From contig JAMPFC010000015.1 of the NCBI GenBank assembly GCA_023664685.1, positions 1 through 45,073 on the forward strand: a DNA stretch of 45,073 nucleotides. The letters run 5' to 3'. Of this stretch, positions 3,989-19,239 are shown piece after piece. Below the pieces are notes generated by a model. The model worked only from the letters and a program-made list of their open reading frames with translations, searched no databases and had not been told where the DNA came from. The first letter of the stretch is position 1; every line of letters begins with the position of its first letter. Position numbers and translations under genes: made by a program. The stretch comes from Roseburia sp. GTDB taxonomy: Bacteria; Bacillota; Clostridia; Lachnospirales; Lachnospiraceae.

Positions 3989-4477
3989 ATGGATATAGAT
4001 GATATAAAGTTTCAGCATGAGATCAATGTGGAGGAATATAACCGCCTCCGGGAAAGCGTGGATTTTATCCGGATCACGCCAGAGCGGGCGAAATGCGCCC
4101 TGAAAAATTCCCTGTACCGGATCATTGCGGTTGATGGGGATACCCCTGTCGGGATGGCGCGCGTGGTCGGGGATGGCGGATATGTTTTTTTTATCTGCGA
4201 TGTGATCGTACATCCGCAGTATCAGTCGAAGGGACTCGGAAGAAAACTGATCGAGCGCGTTCTTGCTTGGCTCGAGGCACAGGTTGACGAGGGCGAGACG
4301 ATCATGGTAAATCTCATGTCTGCGATGAATAAGGAAGAATTTTACAGTAAGCTGGGATTTCACAGACGTCCGTTTGGAAATCATGGTTCCGGCATGTCCC
4401 AGTGGATCAGCGGGGATTCTAAGCGGGGTTTTACGGTAGAGGACGAGGGCGGAAGTGAAAAATGTAAAAAATTGTAA
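3989..4477 (+). CDS. GNAT family N-acetyltransferase
   Basis: This 162-residue protein has the GNAT acetyl-CoA-binding signature VHPQYQSKGLGRKLIERVL at about 75-93, and the later FYSKLGF strand-helix seen in many GNATs. It would transfer an acetyl group from acetyl-CoA to an amine; the substrate cannot be inferred. No clear ribosome-binding site precedes the ATG, which sits five bases after the DUF4250 stop, so translational coupling is likely. The C-terminal 20 residues are charged and probably disordered. Confidence 0.85.
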   Translation: MDIDDIKFQHEINVEEYNRLRESVDFIRITPERAKCALKNSLYRIIAVDGDTPVGMARVVGDGGYVFFICDVIVHPQYQSKGLGRKLIERVLAWLEAQVDEGETIMVNLMSAMNKEEFYSKLGFHRRPFGNHGSGMSQWISGDSKRGFTVEDEGGSEKCKKL

Positions 4478-4498
4478 AAGCAAGAAATAAGGAATAAT

Positions 4499-4522
4499 GC
4501 GAAAAATCGCTCAGAAAAGAGG
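4499..4522 (+). promoter_or_regulatory. Repeated 5' leader element with ribosome-binding site, copy 1
   Basis: A GCGA-AAAA-TCGC mini-hairpin is followed by CTCAGAAAAGAGG, which carries the ribosome-binding site six bases before the thioesterase ATG. The same 24 nt, with one mismatch, precede clpB at 33578-33601. Confidence 0.6.
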
Positions 4523-4528
4523 AATAAC

Positions 4529-5236
4529 ATGTATCAGTGTAAAGACCGGGTATCGTACAGCAGAATTGATACGGAAGGAAAGTTAAAAGTCCATGCGATC
4601 GTAAATGTATTGCAGGATTGCTGTCTGTTCCACAGTGAGGAAGTGGGGCGTTCCTGCATGGATCTTAAGGAGGATGCGCATGCATGGCTTGTCAATTCGT
4701 GGCATATCGTATTTAAGCGGCGGCCATCTATGGGAGAGGAATTTATCACAAAGACATGGCCCTATAAGTTCCGCGGCATTTTTGGCATGAGAAATTTTCT
4801 CATGGAGAGCATGACAGGGGAGACGCTTGTTTATGCAGACTCCCAGTGGTTTTATTTTGACCAGAAGTCCGGAAAGCCGATCAAACCAACGCCGGAGGAG
4901 GTAGAGCCTTTTGGTATGGAGGAAGCGTATCCGATGGAGTATACCTCGAGAAAGGTAGCGTACCCAGAGGAGATGGAATATTATGACACCATCCGGGTGT
5001 GTGAAAATCATATGGATACGAATGAACATGTGAATAATGGCGAGTACATCCGCATGGCGGCGAATTGTCTGCCGGCGGGGTATCGTGTCGATGAGCTGCG
5101 GGTGGAATACCGGCTTGCGGCAAAGCTTGGCGATGAGATCAATATATACGTAAAAAGGATGAAGGACTGTTTTTATGTGGTGATGACGGATCAGGAGAAA
5201 TCCCCTTATGTGATCACTTGTTTTCAGGGAGAATAG
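4529..5236 (+). CDS. Acyl-ACP thioesterase (FatA/FatB-like)
   Basis: This 235-residue protein has the double hot-dog layout of bacterial acyl-ACP thioesterases, which release free fatty acids from acyl carrier protein. The N-terminal half carries VNVLQDCCLFHSEEVG and the W..VFKRRP..GEE strand. The C-terminal half holds MDTNEHVNNGEYIRMA, which matches the conserved N-x-H-V-N-N-x-x-Y motif around the catalytic Asn and His. Length is normal for the family. The start is fixed by the GAGG in the repeated leader element just upstream. Downstream, cvfB starts 59 bases after the stop. Chain-length preference cannot be read from sequence. Confidence 0.9.
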   Translation: MYQCKDRVSYSRIDTEGKLKVHAIVNVLQDCCLFHSEEVGRSCMDLKEDAHAWLVNSWHIVFKRRPSMGEEFITKTWPYKFRGIFGMRNFLMESMTGETLVYADSQWFYFDQKSGKPIKPTPEEVEPFGMEEAYPMEYTSRKVAYPEEMEYYDTIRVCENHMDTNEHVNNGEYIRMAANCLPAGYRVDELRVEYRLAAKLGDEINIYVKRMKDCFYVVMTDQEKSPYVITCFQGE

Positions 5237-5295
5237 CACCATCATGCCAACCTGTTTTTGAGAAAAATTTAGTCCGGGAAGGAAAAAGGATAGAG

Positions 5296-6141
5296 ATGAA
5301 TGTAGAAGAAAAAGTGTTGGGGAGAGTTGTGAGGCTGTATGCATCAAAGACGACAGGCAACGGAGTTTACCTGAGTTCTTATGAGTATCCGGAGCTTCGC
5401 GTGCTTTTACCTAAAAATCAGGTTCCGAAGGATATGGAGAGAGGGGATATCCTTTCGGTGTTTTTGTACAAAGACTCCGAAGACCGTCTGATCGCTACGA
5501 CCTCAGAGCCATATGTTACTTTGGGAAAAATGGCGAAGCTTAAAGTGACAGATGTGACGAATATCGGCGCATTTCTTGATTGGGGGCTTGCCAAAGACCT
5601 GTTTCTTCCGTTTAAGGAGCAGACGCACCGGGTAAAAAACGGAGAAGAGGTGCTTATTGCACTTTATATCGATAAGAGCAGCCGTCTCTGCGCTACGATG
5701 CATATATATGACTATCTTGCTGTGGATGGGGAATTTCAGGTAAATGACCATGTGATGGGGCGCGTGTACGAGCTGACGGATTCTTTTGGCGCTTTTGTGG
5801 CAGTAGAGGATAAATATTCTGCACTCATCCCCCACAATGAAATGAGCCGGGAACTTAAGGTTGGGGAAACCGTATCAGCACGGATCAAAGAGATCCGTGA
5901 GGATGGAAAACTCACGCTCAGTCTTCAAGAAAAGCTTCCAGTGCAGATGGGAATTGATGCAAAAAATGTGATGGAAAAACTAGAGGCTGCGGGGGGATTT
6001 CTCCCATTTCATGATAAGACGTCTCCGGAGATCATAAAGCGGGAATTTCAGATGAGTAAGAATGCGTTTAAGAGAGCGATCGGGCGTCTTATGAAGGAGG
6101 GGCAGATTGCGATAGAACCAAATGGCATCCGGAAAAAATAG
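5296..6141 (+). CDS. cvfB: S1-type RNA-binding protein, CvfB family
   Basis: This 281-residue protein has the CvfB/YitL arrangement: tandem S1-like OB domains followed by a winged-helix C-terminus that reads FQMSKNAFKRAIGRLMKEGQ, a characteristic CvfB ending. The S1 repeats show as KVTDVTNIGAFLDWG and GRVYELTDSFGAFVAVEDKY. CvfB proteins bind RNA and affect virulence-factor or metabolic gene expression in other Firmicutes; the exact target is unknown. The ATG at 5296 follows GGAAAAAGGATAGAG; in-frame codons back to 5218 overlap the thioesterase end and are not needed. It is probably co-transcribed with the thioesterase. Confidence 0.88.
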   Translation: MNVEEKVLGRVVRLYASKTTGNGVYLSSYEYPELRVLLPKNQVPKDMERGDILSVFLYKDSEDRLIATTSEPYVTLGKMAKLKVTDVTNIGAFLDWGLAKDLFLPFKEQTHRVKNGEEVLIALYIDKSSRLCATMHIYDYLAVDGEFQVNDHVMGRVYELTDSFGAFVAVEDKYSALIPHNEMSRELKVGETVSARIKEIREDGKLTLSLQEKLPVQMGIDAKNVMEKLEAAGGFLPFHDKTSPEIIKREFQMSKNAFKRAIGRLMKEGQIAIEPNGIRKK

Positions 6142-6163
6142 GAGACCGATTGGTGCTGATAAA

Positions 6164-8557
6164 CTATGACCAGAAGGAGTGAAGGAGTTCTTTCATTCCT
6201 TTTTTGTTTGTGATATGGTAGGGAATCCATTCTTTTGGGAAAAGTTCGAGGTAGCTTCGTTGGGCAAAACGCTCGTCAAGAAGAAGGATCGCCCCCTTAT
6301 CACTGGCAGTCCGTATTACTCTGCCGCCTGCCTGAAATACTTTGTTTATGCCGGGGTAAAGATAGGCGTAGTCAAAGCCATTTCCTTTTTGGGCATCATA
6401 ATAACGCTTGAACAGTTCCCGTTCGTTGCATACTTGGGGAAGTCCGGTTCCCACGATGACTGTGCCGATCAGGCGGTCTTCTTTCAGGTCGATGCCTTCT
6501 CCGAAGATCCCGCCCATGACACAGAGACCGACGAGAGTGTGGTCATTTTCGGCATCAAAGGCATTGAGGAAATTTTCTTTTTCGGTTTCGCCCATTGACT
6601 GGCTCTGGAGGATGATCTCGGTATCTTCCGGAACATTCAGGCAGGCATGGACATGGTTTAAAAACGCATAGGAGGGGAAGAAAACCATATAATTTCCCTG
6701 TTTGGCGGCGATAAATTCCTCGATATAGGACGCTATTTTTTTGTATTCCTGTTCGTTTCTCCGGGTGTATTTGCTTGTTACGTCGTTGGCAATGATCACT
6801 TCCCGCTGTGTCTTTTGAAACGAGGATTTGGCATAAACGGCATAATCATCCTCGGTGGTGGAAAGCTGCTCCCGGTAATAGCGGACTGGCAAAAGCGTGG
6901 CAGAAAAAAATGCGGTTCCGCGGGCGGCTCCCAGTGTGTCCGCCAGACGGACAGACGGATCCATGCATTGGAGCTTGATGCGGAAGTTATTTTCAGAGTC
7001 ATAATCGGTATAAATCTGATATTTGTCATCTAACACGTCATAAATATTCAAAAAATGCCGGACATCAAAGAAGAAATTCAGTATGGTTTCCCGCTCTGGC
7101 AGATCGTGGATTTCTTTTGTAAATAATTCATAGCTGTTTATAACTCTCATAAGCTGAAAACTGAACGAAGAAATATCGTCGAGGACTTCAAATTCATCAC
7201 ATTGATGTTTCCAGTCAAGCATCGTTTTATTGCATTTTTCAATGGCGGCGATAAAGATTTTTATGATGTAGCGGACTTCCGGCGGGTAGGATTTGCGGGA
7301 TTCTGCTTTTAGGATGCGCTTTACTGCGAGAAAATTTTCTTTTACGAGGACAGCGCTGTACATTTCTCTGGCGCGTTCTACCAGATTGTGTGCCTCGTCG
7401 ATAAGAAACAAAAAGGAGTCCTTTTTTCCCTCTGAGAAGAAGCGGCGCAGATAAACATTCGGGTCAAACGCATAATTGTAATCGCAGATGATGCTGTCAG
7501 CAAAAAGAGCCGCATCCAGACACATCTCAAAGGGGCATACCTGATGCTTCCCAGCATAGGCGAGAATGGTGTCCCTGTCCATATTTGTCTCGTGGATGAG
7601 CAGGTCATATACGCTGTCATTTACCCGGTCATAATGCCCCTTGGCATAAGGACAGGCGGCAGGATTACAGTCAGGGGAACCCTCCAGAAAGCAGAGTTTT
7701 TCCTTGGCGGTTATCGTCAGATATTTGAAATTTAGGTTCTGGGCAGTAAGAAGTTGAAAGCATTCTTGTGCGACAGTCCGGGTGATCGTCTTGGCAGTCA
7801 GGTAGAAAATGCGGTCAGCCAGTCCTTCTCCGACCGCTTTTACCGATGGGAATACAGTGGATATCGTTTTTCCGACGCCGGTGGGTGCCTGAATAAATAT
7901 TTTCTTTTTTTGTTCCATCGTCTTATAAACACAGGCGGCCAGATGATGCTGTCCCTCCCGGTATTCAAAAGGAAATTCGAGATTTTGTATGGAGGCGTTC
8001 CGTTTTTGCTTCCAGTCGTATTCATAGACCGCCCACGGTTCATAGCGGCGGACGAGTTCCTCAAACCAAGTCCGGATCTCAAGGCTTGTATAAGTTTCCT
8101 TGAAGCGGCGTTCTTCCTCGGATTCGAGATGGCAGTACGTAACCTGAACAGAAATAAAAGCGGGATTTTCTTTTTCACAGATCATATAGGCATAGCACAT
8201 CGCCTGTGCTTTGTGGACGTAAATTGGTTCTTTCAGTTGATTGATGTCCATATAGACGCCCTTTATTTCGTCCACCATGATTTCCGACCCGTCACGCAGG
8301 ATCCCGTCGGCGCGGCCCTCTACTTTCAGTTCAAAGGTATCAGAAGTGTCCTTGCTGTTTAGTTTGACGCACGTAAATAAAGGCACCTCTGCCTCATAAC
8401 CGATGCCCATCCGTTTCTGTATTTTTCTGTGAATTTTATTTCCCAGCGCCATAGCTTCTGTATTTTTTACGCCGAAACCGGTGGAGTTGATATCTCCCTC
8501 GCGGAAGATAAATTCCACCAGTGAACGCACTGAGATTTTTACAGTGTTTTTTTCCAT
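6164..8557 (-). CDS. XPD/DinG-like Fe-S helicase with N-terminal PD-(D/E)XK nuclease domain
   Basis: This 797-residue protein joins a Cas4/RecB-like nuclease domain to a superfamily 2 helicase. The nuclease part shows H43, D84 in EGRADGI and DEIKG (E97, K99). The helicase part has Walker A APTGVGKT (224-231), a cysteine cluster suited to an Fe-S domain (C289, C297, C302, then C341 and C346) and the DEAH box (387-390). The C-terminal region has VVGTGLP and the arginine-rich QAGGRVIRT motif VI. Such proteins are DNA helicases probably used in repair or processing of branched DNA. Similar fusions are widespread in Clostridia, so this is not new. It is convergent with cvfB, and its end contains that gene's terminator. 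Confidence 0.88.
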   Translation of the reverse strand: MEKNTVKISVRSLVEFIFREGDINSTGFGVKNTEAMALGNKIHRKIQKRMGIGYEAEVPLFTCVKLNSKDTSDTFELKVEGRADGILRDGSEIMVDEIKGVYMDINQLKEPIYVHKAQAMCYAYMICEKENPAFISVQVTYCHLESEEERRFKETYTSLEIRTWFEELVRRYEPWAVYEYDWKQKRNASIQNLEFPFEYREGQHHLAACVYKTMEQKKKIFIQAPTGVGKTISTVFPSVKAVGEGLADRIFYLTAKTITRTVAQECFQLLTAQNLNFKYLTITAKEKLCFLEGSPDCNPAACPYAKGHYDRVNDSVYDLLIHETNMDRDTILAYAGKHQVCPFEMCLDAALFADSIICDYNYAFDPNVYLRRFFSEGKKDSFLFLIDEAHNLVERAREMYSAVLVKENFLAVKRILKAESRKSYPPEVRYIIKIFIAAIEKCNKTMLDWKHQCDEFEVLDDISSFSFQLMRVINSYELFTKEIHDLPERETILNFFFDVRHFLNIYDVLDDKYQIYTDYDSENNFRIKLQCMDPSVRLADTLGAARGTAFFSATLLPVRYYREQLSTTEDDYAVYAKSSFQKTQREVIIANDVTSKYTRRNEQEYKKIASYIEEFIAAKQGNYMVFFPSYAFLNHVHACLNVPEDTEIILQSQSMGETEKENFLNAFDAENDHTLVGLCVMGGIFGEGIDLKEDRLIGTVIVGTGLPQVCNERELFKRYYDAQKGNGFDYAYLYPGINKVFQAGGRVIRTASDKGAILLLDERFAQRSYLELFPKEWIPYHITNKKGMKELLHSFWS
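6174..6205 (+). terminator. Intrinsic terminator of the thioesterase/cvfB operon, inside the helicase 3' end
   Basis: AAGGAGTGAA pairs with TTCATTCCTT (one G-U pair), followed by a T run to 6205. The hairpin lies within the last codons of the convergent helicase gene. Confidence 0.6.
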
Positions 8558-8583
8558 AGGTCTATTGTAACAGAAGTTTTCCC

Positions 8584-9276
8584 CTACTCTGCCGGCCCCT
8601 GCTCGAGCATCAATTTATTATATAACTCCGATACTTTATCATGTATATCAGCTGACGCAGGTTTGAACCACTTACGTCCTTCAAGCATTTCTTCACTTGC
8701 CATAGTAAGATCGCGTTCCACTTTACCGTCTTCTGAATAGAAACGGACACGATAAGTCCAGCCAACTGTTCGCTGATTTGTATGATTATAGTCAAATCGG
8801 TAATTAGCAGCATTAAACAGCTTATACAAATATTGAGTCGTATTCACATCTCTTACTTCTACCATTTTTCCATCATTACCGTTCACAATATTTGCGTGAG
8901 TAACCCCTTCTGAAATCGTCGGCCATTTTGCTGGAACAGATATTAACGTAATTACATACTTAGCTTTCTTTGTCACTCCGGTTAGTTTAAACTCCCCTTG
9001 CTTTTTTACCTTGATTGTTTTCTTTGTCAGTTTGATCTGGGATTTCTTCGCCGACCATTTTACCTTTTTTCCTTTCAGACCATTTTTCAAGTTATCAAAT
9101 TCATCCGGATCCGTGATATCCGAAAGAATCTTTGATAGTTGATAAGTTTTTCCCTGCTGTACGTAAAGAGGATGAGTTTCCTTTTTCTCAAGTTTTTTAG
9201 CCGCAGATATAGGCTTATCCAAAAGCAAAAAGCTTGTTGCCAATAACAGCAACAATAATATAAGTTTTCTTTTCAT
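8584..9276 (-). CDS. Secreted protein with a basic Ig-like domain
   Basis: This 230-residue protein begins MKRKLILLLLLLATSFLLL and has an AA-type signal-peptidase site near residues 26-27, so it is exported. Residues about 35-115 form a Lys-rich, beta-strand-like region (VQQGKTYQLSKIL, KVKWSAKKSQIKLTKKTIKV, FKLTGV) resembling bacterial Ig-like (Big_2-type) domains. The C-terminal half (about 116-230) is not recognised. The ATG at 9276 is preceded by AAAGGAG; the TTG at 9285 lies inside that site. There is no LPXTG or other anchor. Similar Ig-like stretches occur in the xylanase and in the protein at 39761. Confidence 0.7.
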   Translation of the reverse strand: MKRKLILLLLLLATSFLLLDKPISAAKKLEKKETHPLYVQQGKTYQLSKILSDITDPDEFDNLKNGLKGKKVKWSAKKSQIKLTKKTIKVKKQGEFKLTGVTKKAKYVITLISVPAKWPTISEGVTHANIVNGNDGKMVEVRDVNTTQYLYKLFNAANYRFDYNHTNQRTVGWTYRVRFYSEDGKVERDLTMASEEMLEGRKWFKPASADIHDKVSELYNKLMLEQGPAE

Positions 9277-9335
9277 AAATACCAACTCCTTTTTTGTTTA
9301 CTTACTCGGATACAAAGAGTTCCTTATTTGTTTTT

Positions 9336-9365
9336 ATTGTAACAGATTTTACTATGAAATGGCAA
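9336..9365 (-). promoter_or_regulatory. Predicted promoter for the Ig-like secreted protein
   Basis: On the minus strand TTGCCA (9365-9360) and TACAAT (9341-9336) are 18 bases apart, about 60 bases before the ATG at 9276. Confidence 0.5.
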
Positions 9366-9425
9366 CCACTTTATGGGTTATTGTAAAATTTTGTCGTATA
9401 TTTGGGAAAATTAGGATGGAGTTTA

Positions 9426-9471
9426 TCGAATATCGTTAGTATTTGTCGAATAATGTCGAACGAAAGTTCGA
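9426..9471. promoter_or_regulatory. Cluster of TCGAA repeats upstream of the ligase/ACP operon
   Basis: TCGAA begins at 9426, 9446 and 9456, and the inverse TTCGA at 9467. The last two form a TCGAAC-GAAA-GTTCGA hairpin. Spacings of 20, 10 and 11 are close to whole helical turns, so this may be a regulator site. The -10-like TATAAT at 9513-9518 follows with no good -35. Confidence 0.4.
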
Positions 9472-9556
9472 AAAAATGCATGATTTCTATAGGAAATGTG
9501 TTTGAAATATTGTATAATAAAGGAAAATAACAAACCCATAAAAAGCGAGGCTACAT

Positions 9557-10783
9557 ATGAAGAAAGAACTGATACAACAGGCATATGAGGAAATACCATT
9601 TCTCTCAGAACGCTTAAATGGCACAGAAATTGACTGGAATCTGCCGGAGGGGGAATTTGAAAAAATTCCTCCTCTGGAAAAGGAAGAAATCGCCGCAGAT
9701 GTTCTCCGGCTGATACCGCCCCGTTATCTGGCGGATGTGTATGGTGGGAATCTGTTGCGGGCAAACACTTCTGGGTCGACAGGAAAGTGTCTGGAAATTT
9801 ACTGGAACACAGAAGACTGCAGGCGCTCCCTGTATCCGTTATGGTTTTACCGGAAAAAGTTTTATGGTATCTGCACATGGGATAAGAGATGCCAGTTTTA
9901 TACGATTTCCAGACCGGGGCCGGAGGAAGAAATGGTAAGATACCGGGATTACGGATTGGAATTTAGCAAAAATGATCTGGATGAAGAGAGATTGATCTGG
10001 ATCTATCAGGAGATCAAAAAATATGAACCGGTATGGATGATTCTGCAGCCTTGTATCGCAGAACTGCTGTGTCTTGTGAAAGAAACACATGATCTGCCGG
10101 AACTTGACTCGGTGCGATATATTGAAATGACAGGAGAAATGCTTTCGCAGGAGTTAAGGGATCGTATCGTGGAGACATTTCACTGCACCGTGGCGAATCA
10201 GTATGGGATGAATGAAGTAAACTCGATTGCTTATGAATGTCCGCAGGGAAACCTCCACTGCATGGAAGAAAATGTAGTTGTTGAAATACTGGATGACGAG
10301 GGAAATGTGCTGCCAGATGGCGAGGAGGGAAATATTTATGTGACGACGTGCCATAATCAGGTTATGCCTTTTATCCGTTATGGAACCGGAGACCGAGGAG
10401 TGCTTGAGAGAACACAGTGCAGTTGTGGGTGCCGAGGAAAGATTCTTCGTCTATTGACCGGAAGGAAACATGAATGGGTTCTCACGAGGGATGGGGAAAA
10501 GGTAACGCCTTATGTGTTTGTGCGTGCGGTTGAGGCAGTGAATTATCTTACTGATTTTTGTATTCTCCAATACGAGATTGTGCAGATGGATTATGATGAA
10601 TTTCTGGTTAGGATCGTATTGGACGAGCCAGTAGAGGGAATCCCGGAATTGTTTGTAGAAAATATAGGTCATGAGAGCCTGCAGGCTGCCATGTATGATT
10701 TTTGTTTTGAGAAAGAACTTTTCCCAGATGAGACAGGGAAAAGAAGTTTTTTTAAGAATCAGATCAGGAGCGAAAATACATAA
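9557..10783 (+). CDS. PaaK-like adenylate-forming ligase
   Basis: This 408-residue protein belongs to the phenylacetate-CoA ligase-like branch of AMP-forming enzymes. The ATP-binding loop reads TSGSTGK (71-77), followed by MTGEML and the NQYGMNEVNSIAYEC motif. A cysteine pattern CSCGCRGKI lies after the conserved GTGDRG segment. Such enzymes activate a carboxylic acid as acyl-adenylate and load it on CoA or, in biosynthetic loci, on a carrier protein. It is the first gene of a five-gene operon and is followed within 30 bases by a carrier-protein gene, so loading the carrier is the natural guess. The true substrate is unknown. Confidence 0.85.
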   Translation: MKKELIQQAYEEIPFLSERLNGTEIDWNLPEGEFEKIPPLEKEEIAADVLRLIPPRYLADVYGGNLLRANTSGSTGKCLEIYWNTEDCRRSLYPLWFYRKKFYGICTWDKRCQFYTISRPGPEEEMVRYRDYGLEFSKNDLDEERLIWIYQEIKKYEPVWMILQPCIAELLCLVKETHDLPELDSVRYIEMTGEMLSQELRDRIVETFHCTVANQYGMNEVNSIAYECPQGNLHCMEENVVVEILDDEGNVLPDGEEGNIYVTTCHNQVMPFIRYGTGDRGVLERTQCSCGCRGKILRLLTGRKHEWVLTRDGEKVTPYVFVRAVEAVNYLTDFCILQYEIVQMDYDEFLVRIVLDEPVEGIPELFVENIGHESLQAAMYDFCFEKELFPDETGKRSFFKNQIRSENT

Positions 10784-10810
10784 AGGAGAAAAGGAGGGAA
10801 TCTAGGCAAA

Positions 10811-11062
10811 ATGGACAGTATTTACGAAAGAGTGACCGAACTCATCTTGTTAAACGCTCCGGAAGAACCGCAGATGCCGCTAGAAGAGGATACCAGACTT
10901 CTTGAGGATTTGGGATATGATTCCATTGCGATGATGAGTCTTCTGGTGGACGTGGAAGAAGAGTATGATTTTGAGACAGAGGATATGGAAGAAAGTTTGA
11001 AAGCATTTGAAACCGTAAAAAGTTTTGTAGAGTTTGTCAGAACAAATCAAGGAAAGTTGTAA
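10811..11062 (+). CDS. Acyl/peptidyl carrier protein
   Basis: This 83-residue acidic protein has the carrier-protein motif DLGYDSIAMM; Ser38 is the expected 4'-phosphopantetheine attachment site. The predicted helices and length fit a free-standing ACP or PCP. It is separate from the fatty-acid synthesis genes and sits between an adenylating enzyme and two proteins of unknown function, which points to a dedicated biosynthetic carrier. A strong AGGAGAAAAGGAGGGA stretch precedes it. It is probably activated by the cell's general phosphopantetheinyl transferase, as none is visible here. Confidence 0.92.
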   Translation: MDSIYERVTELILLNAPEEPQMPLEEDTRLLEDLGYDSIAMMSLLVDVEEEYDFETEDMEESLKAFETVKSFVEFVRTNQGKL

Positions 11063-11080
11063 GAGAGGAAGGATAAGTAT

Positions 11081-12046
11081 ATGGAGTCAGGACACATATT
11101 ACCGATCCGGGAGCCATTGCTAAAGGCGTATTTACATATCGGAATGCCATTTAGTATTCTTCCGGAAAAATTTGAAACAAATGGCTGGGTATATAATACA
11201 TATATTCAGCTTGTTTATCATGATGAAAATCCGGCGGACGCTTTTATGGATTTTACCCAAGAGAGGTTTTGGGAGGAACATAACGTATTTACAAAAGGTT
11301 TTCTCGGATTTCCGGCAGGAACGGATGAGGAACGCATAGAAATGCTGATAGAATGGAAGCGGTTTATGGACATGGGATACTATATATTTGGAGACTGGGA
11401 CGAGTATTATATTCCGGATACACCGTTTTATGAAAAAAGTTTTTTTCGGCATTATTTTCTGGCATATGGTTATGAAAATGGGGAGATTTGTGTGGAGGGA
11501 TATCTGGCAGACGGCCACTGGCACCGATTTCGTGTAGAAGAAGAAATATTTTTGCAGGCAGTGCTTCCGGATAAGGACAGGGACAAAAATGGTTATGTAG
11601 GGGTCAATCTATACCGACCCAGAGCGGACAAGTTATTTACTTTTGATTCGGGGCAGGTAAAAAGAGAGGTAAAGGCTTATCTTTGCAGTGAGGGAGAAAC
11701 TACAGAGCTTCTCTATGGTGTGGAGGCGGTGAGAAAATTTTTTGACCAGATGACAGGAGCGATGGAAGAAGGTGCTGACTTTCCGATACAATCGGTGTAT
11801 ATCATCTATGAGCATAAGGTAATGATGCTTAAGCGGCTTGAGTACATGACAGCGGAAAAAAACGGATGCACAGAGGATGATGTGCAGGAATATCAAAAAG
11901 TTGTGGATCAGGTTTTTTCTGTCGTATGCAGTTGTGTAAAATACAGGATGACAAGAAGGGTGGCTCATTTGGAACGGATCAGGGAAAAAATAAACGATGC
12001 CATAGAGTCAGAACAAAGAATATTAAGGAGAATTTTTAATGAATAG
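11081..12046 (+). CDS. Unknown protein A of the ligase/ACP operon (possibly BtrH_N/C39-like)
   Basis: This 321-residue protein is not firmly recognised. Its middle part reads MGYYIFGDWDEYYIP (about 98-112), then YGYENGEICVEGY (129-141). This GYYI...DEYYIP...YGY...GY pattern recalls uncharacterised papain-fold-like proteins (BtrH N-terminal type) found beside carrier proteins in Firmicute biosynthetic loci. That is recollection, and no catalytic Cys can be pointed out in the usual place. The C-terminal half is mostly helical and charged. It starts 18 bases after the ACP stop and overlaps the next gene by 8 bases. A role in transferring or releasing the carrier-bound acyl group is an inference. 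Confidence 0.7.
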   Translation: MESGHILPIREPLLKAYLHIGMPFSILPEKFETNGWVYNTYIQLVYHDENPADAFMDFTQERFWEEHNVFTKGFLGFPAGTDEERIEMLIEWKRFMDMGYYIFGDWDEYYIPDTPFYEKSFFRHYFLAYGYENGEICVEGYLADGHWHRFRVEEEIFLQAVLPDKDRDKNGYVGVNLYRPRADKLFTFDSGQVKREVKAYLCSEGETTELLYGVEAVRKFFDQMTGAMEEGADFPIQSVYIIYEHKVMMLKRLEYMTAEKNGCTEDDVQEYQKVVDQVFSVVCSCVKYRMTRRVAHLERIREKINDAIESEQRILRRIFNE

Positions 12047-12557
12047 GCTTACGGTAAATACAGATATTAAAGATCAGGCAGCAGATATGATACTTACAAG
12101 AGCAGTACTGTCTCCGCAGATGGCAGAAAAGGTGAAAAAAAGACATATAAAGGATATTCCATTTTATGAAGATTTGTCCGTATTTTCTCATGGTTTTTTT
12201 AAATATTACTTCGGAGAAGATAATGTGGAGGATTCACTGGAAGAGGTTAACCGGGATATAAAAAATTTTATTGATTCTGGGTATTATATTCGGATTGGTC
12301 AAGATTGGGGAGAGAGTCTGATTATCTACGGATATGAGGAAGGAATGGTTTGCGTTATGGGAACTGCCAGATCAGAAAATGAGACGGAGATTTCTTTGTA
12401 TAAGGAAAAAATCAGCGAGTTATTGAAAAAATCTGGTTTTTTGGAAGGAAAAAGGAGAGATGAATACCTTCGCCTGCGCACCTTGAAAGAAAATTCTGCA
12501 TTTTCAGATGGAAAAGGCGGAGTGGCCGGATTTTTGAAAGGTCTTTGGCACAAATAG
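12039..12557 (+). CDS. Unknown protein B of the ligase/ACP operon, shorter relative of protein A
   Basis: This 172-residue protein shares a pattern with its upstream neighbour: VFSHGFF against VFTKGFL, IDSGYYI (78-84) against MDMGYYI, and YGYEEGMVCVMG (97-108) against YGYENGEICVEG. The DEYYIP segment of protein A is missing. The ATG at 12039 overlaps the end of the preceding gene, with AAGGAG inside that gene as the ribosome-binding site, so the two are translationally coupled. No known domain is recognised. It may form a heteromer with protein A or be a second copy of the same fold. Confidence 0.7.
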   Translation: MNRLTVNTDIKDQAADMILTRAVLSPQMAEKVKKRHIKDIPFYEDLSVFSHGFFKYYFGEDNVEDSLEEVNRDIKNFIDSGYYIRIGQDWGESLIIYGYEEGMVCVMGTARSENETEISLYKEKISELLKKSGFLEGKRRDEYLRLRTLKENSAFSDGKGGVAGFLKGLWHK

Positions 12558-12597
12558 CAGTATCCTGCCATACAGAAGTTTTAGAATGGAGGACGTT

Positions 12598-14016
12598 ATG
12601 AAAATGCTGAATGGAAGGGATGACGGTACTGCGGTCATCACAGAAGATGGCAGACAGATCTCCTATGCGGAAATAAAAAGATTTTGCCACGCCTTTCAGG
12701 AAAGGATGCCTGACAGAAGTCTTCTGATCATAATTTGTTCCAATACATTAGAATGTATTTCTGGTTACATCGGAAGTCTGATGGGAGAACATGTTCCACT
12801 GCTTCTTGGCCCGGACACGGATTTTTTTATGCTGTCAAAATATCTTGAGGCGTATCAGCCGGGATATGTCTGGACGAAAAAAGAAGAACTGGTAAATGAA
12901 CTGACGGAGAAACAGAAATTTGTGAAAATATTCGGGATGGGAGAATATGTTCTTTTAAAGACGAATTATGCAAAGGTTAAAATGAATCGGGAGCTTGCTC
13001 TTTTACTTACCACATCGGGAACGACAGGAAATTTAAAGACGGTGAGGCTGAGCAAAGAAAATCTTTTATCAAACACGCAGAGCATCTGTGAATATTTGAA
13101 AATTGAGGAATCGCATCGGGCAATTACCACTCTGCCAATGAACTACACATATGGCTTGTCAGTGGTCAACACGCATTTTTTCAGCGGGGCAACGATCCTT
13201 CTTACAGACCGGTCGGTCATTGACCGCAAGTTTTGGGATTTTTTTCGAAAATATCAGGTAACTTCTTTGGCTGGGGTGCCGTATACTTACGAGCTGCTTT
13301 GTCGAATGGGGATCAGAAAAATGGAGCTGCCCTCCCTCCGGGTTATGACACAGGCCGGCGGCGCACTGAAGGAACGGGAATGGTCGTATCTGTCCCGCTA
13401 TTCGGAGGAGCATAAATCTCGGTTTTTTGTAATGTACGGACAGACGGAGGCAACAGCAAGGATAAGTTATCTGGCTCCGGAAAAGATGAAAAGGAAAATG
13501 GGAAGCATCGGAAAAGCGATACCGGGAGGGCGATTATATGTGGCAAATGAAGAAGGGGAGAGGATAGACTCTCCTTATGAGAAAGGCCAACTGATCTATG
13601 AAGGGCCAAACGTAATGATGGGATATGCTGTGGATGTCCGGGATTTAATATCCGGAAATGAACAGCATGGAAAGCTGTGTACAGGAGATATCGGCTATTC
13701 GGATGAAGAAGGCGATTTTTATGTGACCGGACGGATGAACCGCTTTACTAAAATTTATGGAAAACGTATCAATCTTGATGATGTGGAACAGAATCTTTGC
13801 GAAAAGATGGGATGTCAGGCAGTATGTATCACCCGAGGAGATGAGATTGTTTTGCTCCACGAGGGAGGAAAAGACGCGGAGATGGCAGGAATCAGGGAAT
13901 TATGGGAACGGTATGGAATCGGAAGGAAAAATATCATTCCGGTAAAAACCGGGCAGATTCCTCATGCTGCTTCAGGAAAAGTTGATTACAAAGCAGCAGA
14001 GAAATTGATACCATAG
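12598..14016 (+). CDS. AMP-dependent acyl-CoA/acyl-ACP synthetase
   Basis: This 472-residue protein is a class I adenylate-forming enzyme. It has the phosphate-binding motif LTTSGTTGN (137-145), the YGQTEAT motif, the TGDIGY and GRMNRFTKIYGKRI hinge, and the C-terminal HAASGKVDYK segment with the catalytic Lys (K461). It would activate a carboxylate or amino acid as an adenylate. It closes the five-gene operon, which therefore has two activating enzymes for one carrier. The ATG at 12598 is chosen because GGAGG (12588-12592) lies five bases before it; the in-frame ATG at 12586 overlaps that site. Confidence 0.85.
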   Translation: MKMLNGRDDGTAVITEDGRQISYAEIKRFCHAFQERMPDRSLLIIICSNTLECISGYIGSLMGEHVPLLLGPDTDFFMLSKYLEAYQPGYVWTKKEELVNELTEKQKFVKIFGMGEYVLLKTNYAKVKMNRELALLLTTSGTTGNLKTVRLSKENLLSNTQSICEYLKIEESHRAITTLPMNYTYGLSVVNTHFFSGATILLTDRSVIDRKFWDFFRKYQVTSLAGVPYTYELLCRMGIRKMELPSLRVMTQAGGALKEREWSYLSRYSEEHKSRFFVMYGQTEATARISYLAPEKMKRKMGSIGKAIPGGRLYVANEEGERIDSPYEKGQLIYEGPNVMMGYAVDVRDLISGNEQHGKLCTGDIGYSDEEGDFYVTGRMNRFTKIYGKRINLDDVEQNLCEKMGCQAVCITRGDEIVLLHEGGKDAEMAGIRELWERYGIGRKNIIPVKTGQIPHAASGKVDYKAAEKLIP

Positions 14017-14041
14017 CCGAGCGAGGTTGATCATCATTGTG

Positions 14042-14866
14042 CTAATCCGATCGTTCCTGAAAAGTACGGTATGCATAACATGCAGTAAGTACGGTGACTG
14101 CGCCGCTGAGACACATACTGAGAGCCAGATTTTTGATCACTCCAACCTGTGTCAGATAAGTAGGTACATATCCGATGATATGAAGAACGATCGCAACCGG
14201 AAGAAAATACTTCCGCTTTTTATCGTTTACTGCGATATAGATCAAAACAGCAAGGGCGGCTTGGAAGAACAAGGCAAGAATCCGCTCTACACCGGCAGCT
14301 ACATTTTCTATCGGCGGGACAGCGATCAGTTGTGCGATCGCTGTTTTATAATCAGCAAGCGCTTCCCCGCTCAGGTTCAATTTGGCAAGGTAGTTATCCA
14401 TTCCCAGAGAATTTACCATAAAGGCGAGGACGATATTTCCCATAAAAAGCGAACTGCCATAGGCAATCGTTTCAAAGCCTCCATGACCGACTCCGAATAG
14501 AAAGGCGTTTTGTTTGCCGGGGCGGTTTTTCATAAACCGGCTGAGGCCGACGTATTTACCAATTTCTTCAAAGATTCCGGCGGCTACCGCGCCATAAAGG
14601 GCATACCAGACCGGGTGGGTCGACCGATTAAAAACATCTGCCAGAGAAAAAAAGTTAAATAGGAGCATATTGAGAAATCCTTCTGCCCCAAAGGCAAAAA
14701 GTACATAAAATGCCATTCCGATAAAAAAAGAAGATAATTTTGCTCCGGTTTTTGCCCGGTAATATCCCAAAAATATGAAGGGAACAGCAGTACAGATCAG
14801 GGCGATAACGATCATGCTTGCCAGTGATTCACTGGAAAATCTGGTTGCCATAAGTAATGTATTCAT
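14042..14866 (-). CDS. YhfC-family intramembrane glutamic-type protease
   Basis: This 274-residue polytopic protein has about seven hydrophobic segments. It carries the family motifs FEEIGKY (in the segment beginning AAGIFEEIGKYVG) and GHGGFE, where Glu and His residues are conserved in YhfC-like intramembrane proteases (related to the CPBP/Rce1 superfamily). It would cleave membrane proteins or peptides in the cytoplasmic membrane; the substrate is unknown. GGAGAG precedes the ATG. It converges on the ligase operon, with only 25 bases between the stop codons. Neighbouring genes give no clue to a partner. Confidence 0.8.
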   Translation of the reverse strand: MNTLLMATRFSSESLASMIVIALICTAVPFIFLGYYRAKTGAKLSSFFIGMAFYVLFAFGAEGFLNMLLFNFFSLADVFNRSTHPVWYALYGAVAAGIFEEIGKYVGLSRFMKNRPGKQNAFLFGVGHGGFETIAYGSSLFMGNIVLAFMVNSLGMDNYLAKLNLSGEALADYKTAIAQLIAVPPIENVAAGVERILALFFQAALAVLIYIAVNDKKRKYFLPVAIVLHIIGYVPTYLTQVGVIKNLALSMCLSGAVTVLTACYAYRTFQERSD

Positions 14867-15140
14867 AATTCACTCTCCATTCTAATAGAACGTTTATAGG
14901 TTCTTTTGTATCTCATTTTCTACATACTAAATATCATACCGTTCTTTTGGATGTTTGGCAAATGTTTTTTGTAAATAGGAAATAATGTAAACGGTAGTTG
15001 TTGTTTTATGTGGAAATTTGATGGCCGTTCATCGCATATTTTGGTTGTCTGTCGCTAGAGATGGAAATTTGTGTGATGGTGTGATATAATAAATATGATT
15101 TATTAATTGGGCTAAAAATCAGGAAAGGAGAATGCTTATC

Positions 15141-15728
15141 ATGAAGAAAATTACAAAGGGAATAGCAGTGTTGCTTTTAATTGCCACTATTTTGTTTAGA
15201 ACAAATAATGCGTATGCTGCATATAGTGGTGTTGAAGCGGTGAAGTATGCAGAGACGTGGTGGAATGGTTATAATACAAGTCAATATTATAAAGCGGATC
15301 TGGATTGTACAAATTTTGTTTCTCAATGCTTGGTCGCCGGCGGGCAGAAAACTTCGAGTAAATTACCAAGCTATTATGATACTGGTTATTGGCGTCCGCA
15401 TTCGGCCACTTGGGAAAATGCGACATATTGGAGAAAGTATTGGAAGGACAAAACGACACGATGTGGAAGAACGCTTGGAACAAATAAACTTGCTATAAAT
15501 AATGATTTGTATTCTGCACTTGGTTTGGGAGATGTTATCCAGTGGGGATATGGCACTTCTGATATACATCATTCACAGTTGGTAGAAGGATTTAAAACGA
15601 GAGGTGATGGTATCCGAACATGCTATATGATTCAGCATACGGATGCGAGACAGTACATTGACTTATATGATTATTTGAATGCTACTTATTATACGTATGC
15701 ATGTGGATATCATTTTAGTTTTAAATAA
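15141..15728 (+). CDS. Secreted amidase-domain protein (Amidase_6, cysteine hydrolase)
   Basis: This 195-residue protein has a signal peptide ending near AYA-A (residue 27) and then the Amidase_6 pattern: YAETWWNGYN, then DLDCTNFVSQCLVAGG with likely nucleophile C56, and DIHHSQLVEG with candidate catalytic His at 143-144. This family contains papain/NlpC-like secreted hydrolases seen in Firmicutes; cell-wall or peptide amide bonds are possible substrates. The ATG at 15141 lies ten bases after AAGGAG; an in-frame ATG at 15132 is only one base from it. It forms a probable operon with the following coiled-coil gene. Confidence 0.82.
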   Translation: MKKITKGIAVLLLIATILFRTNNAYAAYSGVEAVKYAETWWNGYNTSQYYKADLDCTNFVSQCLVAGGQKTSSKLPSYYDTGYWRPHSATWENATYWRKYWKDKTTRCGRTLGTNKLAINNDLYSALGLGDVIQWGYGTSDIHHSQLVEGFKTRGDGIRTCYMIQHTDARQYIDLYDYLNATYYTYACGYHFSFK

Positions 15729-15749
15729 ACAGAATAGGAGGGAATTTAT

Positions 15750-16262
15750 ATGAAAAAAAGAAAGTTTGAAAAGAGAAAAATAGTTGTTCTTGCAACATGT
15801 GTCTGCGCCATTTTGTGTGGAACTACGGTTTATGCATTGGTTCAGAGTGATGAAGCGATTCGTGACAAAAAGCTTGCTGAAATCGACAATTATGAAAAAC
15901 AGGCAAAAAGTTTAATGGAGGCAGATGCAAATACTGATGATGCTGATAAAAGGCAAGAGTTAAAAGATCAGTTGGGAACTGTTTTGGATAAGAAAATGAA
16001 ACTTGAAATAGAGACAAATTCCTATGATTATAAAGGGGAATTGGAAATCTCTATTCATTCTGTACTGACTGCAGTAGAAGATTCGGAGCGGTTTCTAAAA
16101 GAAAATCCGGAAAAATTATCAAAAAAGGGGGAAAAACGTCTCTCTGCTCTAAGAAACCTTTGTCAAAAATATGAAAAGGAACTGGAGTCCTGTGAGGATT
16201 ATAAGAAATTGTTAGAAAATTACCGACGGGAGTTAGATGAAATATATAATAACTATCGTTGA
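15750..16262 (+). CDS. Exported or membrane-anchored coiled-coil protein
   Basis: This 170-residue protein has a basic start (MKKRKFEKRK), one hydrophobic segment (about 11-30) and then a highly charged, helical body rich in Glu and Lys with heptad-like spacing, from about 35 to the end. No domain is recognised. It begins 21 bases after the amidase gene, with a GGAGGG ribosome-binding site, so the two are probably exported together. It may be a helical partner or inhibitor of the amidase, but this is only suggested by position. Confidence 0.7.
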   Translation: MKKRKFEKRKIVVLATCVCAILCGTTVYALVQSDEAIRDKKLAEIDNYEKQAKSLMEADANTDDADKRQELKDQLGTVLDKKMKLEIETNSYDYKGELEISIHSVLTAVEDSERFLKENPEKLSKKGEKRLSALRNLCQKYEKELESCEDYKKLLENYRRELDEIYNNYR

Positions 16263-16391
16263 TACAAATTAGGAAGTTTGCGAGAGAATATAAAACGAAT
16301 CTTATTAAAGATGGGCTATCATATCGTACTTTTCAGGAACTGTCGGATTAGCACAGTGATGATCTCCCTTAAAAAATAATGTGAGAAATCG

Positions 16392-16421
16392 TTGCCATTT
16401 CATAGTGAAATTTGTTATAAT
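16392..16421 (+). promoter_or_regulatory. Predicted promoter for the lipoprotein gene
   Basis: TTGCCA (16392-16397) and TATAAT (16416-16421) are 18 bases apart, about 45 bases before the ATG at 16468. Confidence 0.6.
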
Positions 16422-16467
16422 AAAAAGTAATAGTGGTATTCATTATGAAAAGATTGGAGGGGATCAT

Positions 16468-17640
16468 ATGCGAAGAATAGTAAGTTTGCTGATGCTCTGC
16501 ATACTGTGCCTTAACCTTTGTTCCTGTGGGACAAGTAATGTTTCTTCTGATGAACCAGAGGAGACAGCACAGGCTGAAACAGAAACATTTAAAGAAGGAA
16601 CGATACCGCTTGATGATAAAAGCGAAAATAAGAGCAGTCTTCCGTTCAAGGCATCAGACCATTATGAGTGTATAGAGACAGATACCCCGATTCATGATTC
16701 AGGCCTTACCTATATAGAAATCATAGATGATATGATCTATGTCACGATCCAACAGCATGATACGGAAAAAAATCGTGGTTATTATGAATACTGCACCTAT
16801 GATATGTTAGAGGAAGAATGGACAGAACCCCAAAGGTGTATATGGAGTGAAAATCTGTCCGAACTCGGAGGTGGACAGTTGTTTCACCGTGACACGGATG
16901 GAAGTTGGTACTGTCTTCTGGTTCCCAGACGAGAAACAAACCAGAGGGACTGTATCTGCAGACTGAATAATGATGGGACAGTTGAAAAGATTGACCTTCC
17001 GGAAGAAGTGTGGCAGGGAGAGAAGGATGTGGGAGTCCTGAATTATGAGTTTATTGGTGATGGGAAGGTTATGATCCTTCTGGAAAAACCGTCGGAAAAT
17101 ATATATGAGGGGTCTACAGAGGTCTATGGGACATGTCTGATGAATATAAAGACAAAAGAATATGAAATCCAGCAGATTTCTAAAGATCTGCTCATTCCAA
17201 TGGTGATCGGAAATGAATTTTTCTGTACTTCCTACACGGAAGAATCCTGTGGGTTTCTTGTCAAAAAAAAGGACAGCGAACAGCCGGTCAGGGAGTTGAG
17301 GTGTGAACCTTTTCAGACAGGTGTGGACCAGTGTACCCCTTTTTTTAAATATCCGCAGATCTGTCAGGATGATGGGGATAACGTATATATTATGTATGAT
17401 GATGGCATTTATGGCGGGTATTATAAGGACAAAAAGCTAAAACCGATATTAAAGGAAAATATGGCGTTGTTTTTGGGATTAGGTGGAAAGGGAAAAAACG
17501 CAGCACCTACTGTGGCGAGTTTTAGCCGGGGAGTGGATACGAAATACGTTGATTTTTATGTATTGATCGCTGAGGCGGCTAGCAGGATTGAAACACAACC
17601 GGATTTTAATTATAAGCTTGTGCATATTAAGGCGGAATAA
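16468..17640 (+). CDS. Putative lipoprotein of unknown function
   Basis: This 390-residue protein starts with a lipoprotein-type signal (MRRIVSLLMLCILCLNLCSC) with the likely lipid-bearing Cys at residue 20, followed by a Ser/Glu/Thr-rich spacer. The rest shows repeated short strand patterns (YIEIIDDMIYVTIQ, NDGTVEKIDLPEEV, YEFIGDGKVMILLE, DDGDNVYIMYDDGIYGG), as expected for a beta-propeller-like extracytoplasmic domain, but no family is identified. GGAGGGG precedes the ATG at 16468. It is a single-gene unit with its own promoter and a downstream terminator. Confidence 0.72.
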   Translation: MRRIVSLLMLCILCLNLCSCGTSNVSSDEPEETAQAETETFKEGTIPLDDKSENKSSLPFKASDHYECIETDTPIHDSGLTYIEIIDDMIYVTIQQHDTEKNRGYYEYCTYDMLEEEWTEPQRCIWSENLSELGGGQLFHRDTDGSWYCLLVPRRETNQRDCICRLNNDGTVEKIDLPEEVWQGEKDVGVLNYEFIGDGKVMILLEKPSENIYEGSTEVYGTCLMNIKTKEYEIQQISKDLLIPMVIGNEFFCTSYTEESCGFLVKKKDSEQPVRELRCEPFQTGVDQCTPFFKYPQICQDDGDNVYIMYDDGIYGGYYKDKKLKPILKENMALFLGLGGKGKNAAPTVASFSRGVDTKYVDFYVLIAEAASRIETQPDFNYKLVHIKAE

Positions 17641-17676
17641 TTTCTCTAGATACTGATTCAGAATATTGTAAGTGAT

Positions 17677-17724
17677 AAAAAGGATATCCTAAAGTCTGTT
17701 TGTGGCGGAGGGATACCTTTTTTT
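17677..17724 (+). terminator. Probable intrinsic terminator after the lipoprotein gene
   Basis: AAAAAGG (17677-17683) pairs with CCTTTTT (17716-17722), with a short inner stem, and ends in a T run. Confidence 0.5.
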
Positions 17725-17763
17725 GTTGTCATTAAAATAAAGAGTAAAGCTGGAATTATCCCA

Positions 17764-17792
17764 TTGCAAAAATAAAAGAAACTTAGTATACT
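17764..17792 (+). promoter_or_regulatory. Predicted promoter for the yaaO-rsmI block
   Basis: TTGCAA (17764-17769) and TATACT (17787-17792) are 17 bases apart, about 38 bases before the decarboxylase start. Confidence 0.6.
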
Positions 17793-17829
17793 ATAGGATA
17801 CAACAATACGAGGAAAAGATGGAAAACGG

Positions 17830-19239
17830 ATGAAGGACAGATTATATATGGCTTTGGAGCGTTATTGCCGGAAGGATATTCTTCCGATGCATATGCCCGG
17901 GCATAAAAGAAATAAAAAATTTCAGATGGGAAATCCGTATGAACTGGATGTCACAGAAGTTACCGGGATGGATGACCTGCATCATCCGACGGGGATCATA
18001 AAAGAACTGATGGATCAGATTTCTGCGATGTATCATTCGGAGCATTCTTATCTGCTCATAAACGGAAGCACCGGTGGGATTTTGGCGGCGATCGCCGCCT
18101 GTTGCCGCCACGGAGACCGGATCGTAGTAGCTAGAAATTGTCACAGGTCGGTGTATCATGCCATTCGCCTTTTGGAACTCCGGCCGGTGTATGTGTATCC
18201 GGAGCCTGCCGGAAGTGCCGGGGAGAGACTTGGGATCGCCGGGGAAATCCGGGCGGAAGCGGTGGAACAGGTACTGAGGCAGTATGATGACATCTCCTGT
18301 GTGGTGATCACGTCTCCTACATATGAGGGAATTGTGTCTCCAATCCGGGATATTGCAGAGGTTGTGCATCGAAAGCAGCTTCCGCTTATTGTCGATGAGG
18401 CACATGGCGCACATTTTAATTGGCACAATGCATTTCCTGACACAGCTCTGACAGAAGGAGCTGATATTGTAATAGAAAGTCTCCACAAAACACTTCCCGC
18501 CTTTACCCAGACGGGACTTCTCCATGTTCGGGAGGGATTTGTCCGGCTCCGGCGGCTTATGTGGAGTCTCGATACATTTCAGTCTAGCAGCCCGTCCTAT
18601 CTTTTTATGGCTGGCATCGACCGGTGTTTTGCATATATTGAAGAGGAGGGGGCGGAGGCATTTGATGCATATGTGAAAAATCTGCGGGATTTCAGGGAAG
18701 AGATGAGAGGACTTAAAAATCTGTATCTTTTTGAGACATCCGCAAAAGAACTTTCTAAAATTGTTGTGGCGACAGACCGGGCGGGTATTTCCGGAAAGAA
18801 ACTTGCCGATATATTATGTGAAAAATACCGGATCGAGACGGAGATGAGCTGTGGAAATTATTGTATCGCGATGACCAGTGTTTGCGATGAGCGGGCGAGT
18901 TTCCGGAGATTTGCCGATGCACTGAAAGAAATTGATGATACAGTTTTGGAAATAGCCGAGAAAAATGACGGTTCGCTTTGGTATGACTGGAGTGCGCCGG
19001 AAATCTGTATGTACAGTTTTGAGGCGGCAGACTGCGAAACGGAATCTTTGCCGGTGGGGGAATCGGCAGGACGCATCGCCGGAGAGGATATTTATCTGTA
19101 TCCGCCGGGGATTCCGGTTGTTGTTCAGGGAGAACGGATATCCGAAGAGACTGCGGCAGTTTTATATGCCGGGGAGAAAAAGGGATATCGAATCTATGGC
19201 GTGAGGGATGGAATGGTAACTGTGATTGCCGAGGCATAA
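17830..19239 (+). CDS. yaaO: Orn/Lys/Arg decarboxylase family PLP enzyme (YaaO/SpeA-like)
   Basis: This 469-residue protein is a fold-type I PLP enzyme of the small Firmicute amino-acid decarboxylases. It shows PMHMPGHKR near the N-terminus, NGSTGGILAAI, the DEAHGAH aspartate that contacts the PLP ring nitrogen, and ESLHKTLPAFTQ with K220 as the Schiff-base lysine. It would decarboxylate arginine, lysine or ornithine towards polyamines; the preferred substrate cannot be told. In B. subtilis yaaO stands just before tmk-yaaQR-holB, and the same order follows here. It is probably the first gene of the block running to rsmI. Confidence 0.87.
   Translation: MKDRLYMALERYCRKDILPMHMPGHKRNKKFQMGNPYELDVTEVTGMDDLHHPTGIIKELMDQISAMYHSEHSYLLINGSTGGILAAIAACCRHGDRIVVARNCHRSVYHAIRLLELRPVYVYPEPAGSAGERLGIAGEIRAEAVEQVLRQYDDISCVVITSPTYEGIVSPIRDIAEVVHRKQLPLIVDEAHGAHFNWHNAFPDTALTEGADIVIESLHKTLPAFTQTGLLHVREGFVRLRRLMWSLDTFQSSSPSYLFMAGIDRCFAYIEEEGAEAFDAYVKNLRDFREEMRGLKNLYLFETSAKELSKIVVATDRAGISGKKLADILCEKYRIETEMSCGNYCIAMTSVCDERASFRRFADALKEIDDTVLEIAEKNDGSLWYDWSAPEICMYSFEAADCETESLPVGESAGRIAGEDIYLYPPGIPVVVQGERISEETAAVLYAGEKKGYRIYGVRDGMVTVIAEA

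Follow-up and report, generated by a model that had tools for sequence, protein, structure and literature searches.

The window analysed here, a 45,073-nt stretch of Roseburia sp. DNA (contig JAMPFC010000015.1, assembly GCA_023664685.1), carries a five-gene operon at positions 9557–14016 that probably encodes a thiotemplated module for the activation and transfer of an acyl (or aminoacyl) group without megasynthase parts. Its products, P1 to P5, are two adenylate-forming ligases, a free-standing acyl carrier protein (ACP) and two related proteins, A (P3) and B (P4). The genes are as follows:

9557–10783, plus strand: P1, PaaK-type adenylate-forming ligase, 408 aa (Pfam AMP-binding, 6.7e-12).
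10811–11062, plus strand: P2, free-standing ACP, 83 aa, with DSI attachment site at Ser38 (Pfam PP-binding, 2.7e-6).
11081–12046, plus strand: P3 (A), putative acyltransferase of BtrH-like type, 321 aa, retaining His124 and with its first Cys at residue 137 (BtrH_N matches of its family alignment).
12039–12557, plus strand: P4 (B), short relative of A, 172 aa, lacking the His (BLASTP to A).
12586–14016, plus strand: P5, AMP-forming ligase, 476 aa (Pfam AMP-binding, 3.3e-41).

A sequence-only reading of this stretch had described these five genes as one packed operon, and the operon is real: the genes share the plus strand, their gaps are 27, 18 and 28 bp, and the A and B genes overlap by 8 bp. 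A promoter scan gave 14 against a shuffle mean of 10.9 (SD 3.0) and a terminator scan 5 against 3.3, neither clearly above the shuffles, so the operon call is based on packing. As had also been claimed, the five proteins gave no Pfam match to a ketosynthase, condensation domain, thioesterase or transporter and thus do not present the combination of condensation, carrier and adenylation domains of a non-ribosomal peptide synthetase. The sole condensation-domain match of this genome lies on another contig (C41, L154) and contains a stop; next to it are a carrier domain and, at the contig edge, a partial AMP-binding match.

Both P1 and P5 match the AMP-binding profile and retain what we take to be the individual motifs of adenylate-forming ligases, including the C-terminal Lys, which is present as Lys395 in 38 of 41 rows of the P1 clade and as Lys465 in all 16 rows of the P5-type alignment that are not gapped there (3 of 19 are). 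The attachment residue of P2, Ser38, is conserved in 47 of 48 rows. Among solved chains, P1 is best matched by phenylacetate-coenzyme A (CoA) ligase (2.2e-16) and P5 is closest to oxalate- and succinylbenzoate-CoA ligases; the best NCBIfam match of P5 is TIGR03098 (2.7e-51), yet it scores far below the curated cut-off. Since stretches of the pocket region (Tyr187-Thr188-Tyr189-Gly190, Thr255, Ala257-Gly258, and Met283 to Arg292) are identical in 19/19 P5-type ligases, the alignment suggests that these enzymes use one common acid. HMMER sets Tyr187-Gly190 opposite the matching part of the oxalate- and succinylbenzoate-CoA ligases. Amino-acid-activating domains bear an Asp at the position of this stretch, so an alpha-amino acid is less likely as the substrate of P5. 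A further AMP-binding ligase (588 aa, 25640–27406) lies outside both the operon and the P5-type set.

A and B had been noted as related proteins, which BLASTP confirms (83 aligned residues, E 2e-7). In profile comparisons the match is weaker: the five-row A profile gave E 8.9e-5 and a probability of 60% with B, and the 40-row A-branch profile E 0.0069 and a probability of 5.6%. That they are unknown proteins holds insofar as neither, searched alone, matches Pfam or NCBIfam up to E 1, but A can be placed in a branch of BtrH-like, papain-fold proteins that has not conserved the Cys. Genomes were drawn from the genus (39), family (200), order (392) and phylum (398), and relatives of A were found in 16 of the 200 family genomes (23–34% identity over the matched part) and in 7 of the 39 genus genomes (22–28% identity), the window's own genome included in each case. 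In a 23-row family alignment consisting of A, B and 21 relatives, eight members match Pfam BtrH_N (best 1.4e-5), four match Peptidase_C39_2, and one matches the NCBIfam family DarH, a BtrH-related acyltransferase (0.038). According to part of PMC10318531, BtrH_N belongs to an ACP:aminoglycoside acyltransferase and is close to the C39/C70 papain-like families. These matches point to a relationship between the family of A and acyltransferase domains, in keeping with the earlier suggestion that A and B could transfer or release the product, and make both likely transfer proteins.

The A-type sequences were split by eye into A's branch (40 rows) and a Cys-bearing BtrH-like set (17 rows), with four unclear rows in neither, and the two profiles match each other with a probability of 97.1 (E 6e-11). 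Their alignment begins at window residue 85 and sets His124 of A opposite an invariant His; the N-terminal stretch aligns loosely between the branches. In an alignment of 14 Cys-bearing sequences (two short or cut rows and that of L137 were left out), Cys41, His148 and Asp164 (first-row numbering) are invariant, and by analogy with the papain-like family the Cys would be the nucleophile. Compared with this triad, i) the His is found in 17/17 Cys-bearing and 35/40 A-branch rows, and in A itself, ii) the N-terminal Cys is missing from window A, the first Cys of which is residue 137, and each of columns 15 to 29 has a Cys in at most 7/40 A-branch rows, and iii) the Asp, present in 17/17 Cys-bearing rows, is replaced by Gly in 22/40 and kept in 9/40 rows of A's branch, window A having Gly in one alignment and Glu139 in another. 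Because the Cys and the Asp are lacking, we term A BtrH-like and not BtrH; judged from its profiles, it is a divergent, putative member of the group without the usual N-terminal Cys. A PDB profile search with A's family gave three matches only, with E 1.1 or worse, and the Cys-bearing alignment matched the putative C39-like peptidase 3erv (E 6e-5).

B lacks the conserved His in the A/B alignment, and the earlier description of it is corrected to that of a short A relative; no other relative of B was found in the fetched loci. In L059, L061 and L062 a His-bearing A is paired with a shorter protein lacking the His, and L060 has a 270-aa partner at the same place. B was considered as an orthologue of these 270–277 aa partners in L059–L062 and rejected, there being no significant match (probability 0.5%). 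In L069 (9532–10861) and L125 (10775–12020), A-type genes were seen only as pieces and are possibly disrupted, gene calls in all fetched loci being mechanical longest-ORF (open reading frame) calls.

The scheme that we infer from these features is as follows: 1) P1 and P5 would each adenylate a carboxylic acid. 2) At least one ligase, perhaps both in turn, would load the phosphopantetheine thiol of P2. 3) A would move the acyl group from P2 to an amine acceptor, possibly a small molecule, possibly a (poly)peptide; lacking an N-terminal Cys, window A would not form a Cys-bound acyl-enzyme but would rely on direct attack assisted by the conserved His124. 4) B may be a degenerate partner that shapes or regulates A.

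The P1 ligase clade comprises 31 genes in 14 of the 39 genus genomes (E 1e-24 or better), with up to seven per genome. At E 1e-35 it was found in 4 of 392 genomes of the order draw, all from the same family, and in 2 of 398 of the phylum draw, namely the window's own genome and one outside the family with 33% identity. The fetched loci contain 44 ligase-clade genes in 43 loci (43 are P1 matches at 1e-24 or better; L043 entered through its A gene), within 9 kb of which lie an ACP in 29 cases, an A-type gene in 24, a P5-type ligase in 19 and all three in 13, the A profile used for counting also catching Cys-bearing BtrH-like proteins. Among genus A matches outside the window's genome, 9 of 14 lie within 10 kb of a ligase-clade gene against 0.30 expected, a figure that, like the other expectations given below, presumes uniform placement and independent loci; these nine sit on six contigs and the loci are kin by descent, so that any P value is idealised. 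Co-location of ligase and A thus exceeds chance. That unrelated ligase and carrier genes came together by chance, for which one could cite how common adenylate-forming enzymes are (seven AMP-binding matches in this genome), is very improbable, given the tight packing and a co-location in relatives well above expectation, the observation set as decisive against chance. Lack of co-conservation in relatives, named beforehand as a refutation of the sequence-only reading, was thus not observed for the module, but the exact combination is not conserved, as the five-gene set was present only in the window among the loci fetched.

An ACP gene lies within two genes on the same strand of 22/58 A-type genes, and in seven loci (L030, L031, L036, L038, L039, L040 and L042) the order is ACP, A, phosphopantetheinyl transferase, the last being a Pfam assignment in L039 and a BLASTP assignment in the other six. 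The A proteins of these loci are 68–76% identical to the first of them, and such strong conservation suggests a common role for the set; together with the 22 adjacent ACP genes, these loci support the compact carrier-tethered pathway with two activating enzymes that had been proposed. L034 has a phosphopantetheinyl transferase near A and no called ACP. In L039 the set adjoins the genes for ribosomal proteins L11 and L1.

In the P1 tree, built from 41 rows, the window sequence clusters with those of L118, L119 and L120 (100/100), and these nearest orthologues share 56–58% identity with P1. The L118 ligase lies at a contig edge. In both L119 and L120, the stretch fetched encodes a Cys-bearing BtrH-like protein but neither A nor B, which suggests that the ligase was retained and the transferase replaced. 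Three other relatives, L122, L123 and L125, carry a pyridoxal phosphate-dependent decarboxylase and an ATP-grasp gene (by clustering, the families being tested on L122 alone); the best NCBIfam match of the L122 decarboxylase is TIGR03099, far below the curated cut-off. An apparent fusion of a P5-type ligase with an ACP in L063 was discarded, since it looks like an ordinary adenylation-carrier protein. No relatives were found by a peptide-pattern search of GTDB contigs with A and P1 or by a search of viral contigs with a five-sequence A alignment, and a DNA search of plasmids gave no match to the operon; protein searches with P1 gave 6 phage and 74 plasmid records, with identity below 60% among the matches listed.

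The same evidence bears on a different division of labour, in which the carrier is fed by a single ligase, the second ligase supplies a CoA thioester for use elsewhere, and A and B remove mis-loaded acyl groups by hydrolysis or editing. This would fit the CoA ligases that are the nearest solved chains of P1 and P5, as well as the loci with a ligase and an ACP and no P5-type ligase within 9 kb. It is nevertheless improbable, since the genes are tightly packed, both ligases, ACP and A recur together in 13/44 cases, and window A lacks the N-terminal Cys expected of a papain-like thioesterase.

Several observations weigh against an activation and transfer module with A as its transferase. For nine of the 44 ligase-clade genes, no partner of the three kinds lies within 9 kb (five of the nine are near contig ends, four are not), and 36 of the 58 A-type genes lack a same-strand ACP gene within two genes. 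The window's genome gave one phosphopantetheinyl transferase match, of AcpS size and not of the Sfp type, which would have to make holo-P2. For A, there is the silence of Pfam and NCBIfam mentioned above, and its AlphaFold2 model alone was unusable (predicted local distance difference test 42, predicted template modelling score 0.30), so its fold is assigned from profiles. A Cys occurs in or just after the N-terminal motif stretch in 19/40 A-branch rows, so these relatives may use a moved nucleophile, and A might be a non-catalytic scaffold.

A link to exported proteins, which the sequence-only reading did not contain, was added by the present analysis. Signal-like N-termini, called by a home-made hydropathy rule on mechanically called genes of 100 aa or more, were found in 104 of the 211 non-core genes that share the strand run of the ligase, compared with 63 of 332 other genes of the same ligase loci, 40 of 312 genes in 22 loci without ligase (which had been fetched for their A gene) and, as a negative control, 1 of 170 core genes. 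At least one such gene is present in the run in 29 of the 43 ligase loci. Of the 51 places in the genus where a subtilase family (its query a Pfam Peptidase_S8 protein) was found, 13, counting that of the query, lie within 10 kb of a ligase, against 0.56 expected, and a cluster with a BspA-type leucine-rich repeat protein (Pfam on one member) is present in 12 loci. Clusters labelled by eye among the 43 ligase loci include ATP-binding cassette (ABC) transporters in 16, LytTR-type regulators in 11 and histidine kinases in 7; clustering was by single linkage, some clusters are of mixed lengths, and few members were checked by Pfam or NCBIfam.

Ligase-clade genes are also found in three CLI_3235/CcpM radical S-adenosylmethionine (SAM) peptide clusters, L137, L138 and L139, of which L137 matches TIGR04065 and TIGR04069 and L138 these and TIGR04068 and TIGR04066; only TIGR04066 and the L138 precursor pass curated cut-offs, L139 and the rest of L137 being assigned by clustering. 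Between 2501 and 14720, L137 holds a CLI_3235-type precursor, a radical SAM gene, a PaaK-type ligase, two ACP-like proteins, a P5-type ligase, a BtrH-like protein, an ABC transporter and a subtilase (partly by clustering). The L138 and L139 ligases lie on a long branch of the P1 tree.

Two accounts of these neighbours differ in the acceptor. A tentative one, which falls somewhat short of even probability, is that the module makes a small amide (an acyl-amine or a short peptide-like compound) that is exported and sensed, the exported neighbours serving export, immunity or response. The transporter, regulator and kinase clusters near the ligases agree with this, as do an AgrB-like gene in L043 (by eye), the decarboxylase and ATP-grasp genes of L122, L123 and L125, and the precedents of butirosin and closthioamide; however, the window operon holds no transporter or regulator, and the link to exported proteins is broader than immunity needs. 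In L043, the AgrB-like gene shares a single run (198–11820) with two genes that by eye look like dehydratase genes, two for ABC transporters, two A-type genes, an ACP and ligases.

The other account, which we regard as unlikely, is that A and B acylate an exported protein or ribosomal peptide encoded nearby with the carrier-bound group. It draws on the excess of signal-like genes in the ligase run, the subtilase co-location and the CLI_3235/CcpM clusters, including L137, where precursor, radical SAM gene, ligases, ACP and BtrH-like gene are joined. Against it, the exported families differ from locus to locus, the run lacks signal-like genes in 14/43 ligase loci, the excess depends on the home-made rule and mechanical gene calls, Sec substrates would need to be modified before or during export, and the L138 and L139 ligases are long-branched. 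The window run itself has no exported protein, the nearest ones being divergent or beyond an opposite-strand gene, and this position outside the operon run weakens an exported polypeptide as acceptor for the window locus. No precursor peptide was found beside the operon among ORFs of at least 20 aa in 9286–9560 and 14010–15130, and no precursor or radical SAM gene among ORFs of at least 60 aa in 5000–19000, no radical SAM profile having been run on the window; the pairing of a precursor with a CcpM radical SAM enzyme that marks the CLI_3235/CcpM clusters is thus not seen beside the window operon. For the family as a whole, it is an unlikely idea that multicopy, recombining machinery of ligases, carriers and BtrH-like transferases, many without the conserved Cys, modifies adjacent exported proteins and ribosomal peptides. 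If true, a non-ribosomal carrier system would decorate ribosomal products. The window operon itself ties together a ligase clade nearly confined to one family in the draws made, a branch of papain-like transferases with no conserved Cys, and exported proteins or peptide clusters.

The immediate surroundings of the operon include the following two upstream features:

8584–9285, minus strand: divergent gene whose product looks exported (signal peptide seen by eye), a recurrent neighbour of the ligase clade.
9286–9556, no strand assigned: divergent intergenic region, presumed site of the operon promoter (TATAAT by eye; inference only).

The family of the 8584–9285 product lies within 10 kb of a ligase-clade gene for 7 of 13 genus matches, the window's included, and for 6 of 12 outside the window's genome, against 0.23 expected. 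A short inverted repeat, TCGAAC-GAAA-GTTCGA (9450–9475, by eye; the repeat finder did not list it), lies upstream of P1 and is perhaps an operator. Directly after the operon, on the opposite strand, is a gene for a YhfC-family intramembrane metalloprotease (14042–14866, Pfam 6e-37), followed at 15132–17640 by genes for three proteins: one with an Amidase_6 match that looks exported, one of 170 aa and, judged by eye, a lipoprotein; their single-sequence profiles found no relatives in other fetched loci. A suspected resemblance of this lipoprotein (16381–17640) to those of L137 or L122 was dropped, as single-sequence profiles gave no match.

No paper recognised as describing this gene set was found in the open-licence literature searched, and the module is best compared with five known systems. 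With the exosortase A-associated system it shares the best NCBIfam matches of P5 (ligase) and of the L122 decarboxylase, but both proteins score far below the curated cut-offs. With the CLI_3235/CcpM clusters L137–L139 it shares the ligase clade, an ACP-like protein and, among the relatives, a subtilase, but the ORFs read around the window operon show no precursor peptide or radical SAM gene. Similar radical SAM peptide clusters are described in PMC4573289 and PMC10731318, excerpts of which do not mention such a ligase. Several predicted operons combining an acyl-CoA ligase, an ACP and a BtrH-family or other papain-like transacylase are reported in part of PMC2922099, but they are built round tRNA-synthetase-like enzymes, which are not seen here, and within that part contain no PaaK/A/B set.

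The two closest parallels are closthioamide and butirosin. To our knowledge, closthioamide is assembled without condensation domains. Its pathway resembles the window operon, by description and not by sequence, in having stand-alone carriers (CtaE and CtaH), an adenylate-forming enzyme (CtaI) and separate transferases (CtaG and CtaJ), as outlined in a section of PMC6772006, but differs in having two carriers, an ATP-grasp enzyme and a thioamide synthetase. Like the butirosin side-chain module, the window has a free-standing ACP and a BtrH-like protein. In butirosin BtrI is the carrier, BtrJ the ATP-grasp ligase and BtrK the decarboxylase, and relatives L122, L123 and L125 add decarboxylase and ATP-grasp genes to the likeness. 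Part of PMC11405602 assigns BtrI, BtrJ and BtrK to the butirosin side chain. The window operon differs in that it has two AMP-forming ligases and no ATP-grasp or decarboxylase gene, its A lacks the N-terminal Cys and is likened through the BtrH_N profile and not to BtrH itself, and B comes in addition; of the flanking ORFs read, none was recognised as an aminoglycoside gene, no search having been aimed at such genes. By analogy, the module may work like butirosin side-chain transfer and closthioamide assembly. Should the carrier be loaded and A form amides, this would be an amide-forming system without a megasynthase, its transferase devoid of the usual nucleophile and its ligase present up to seven times per genome.

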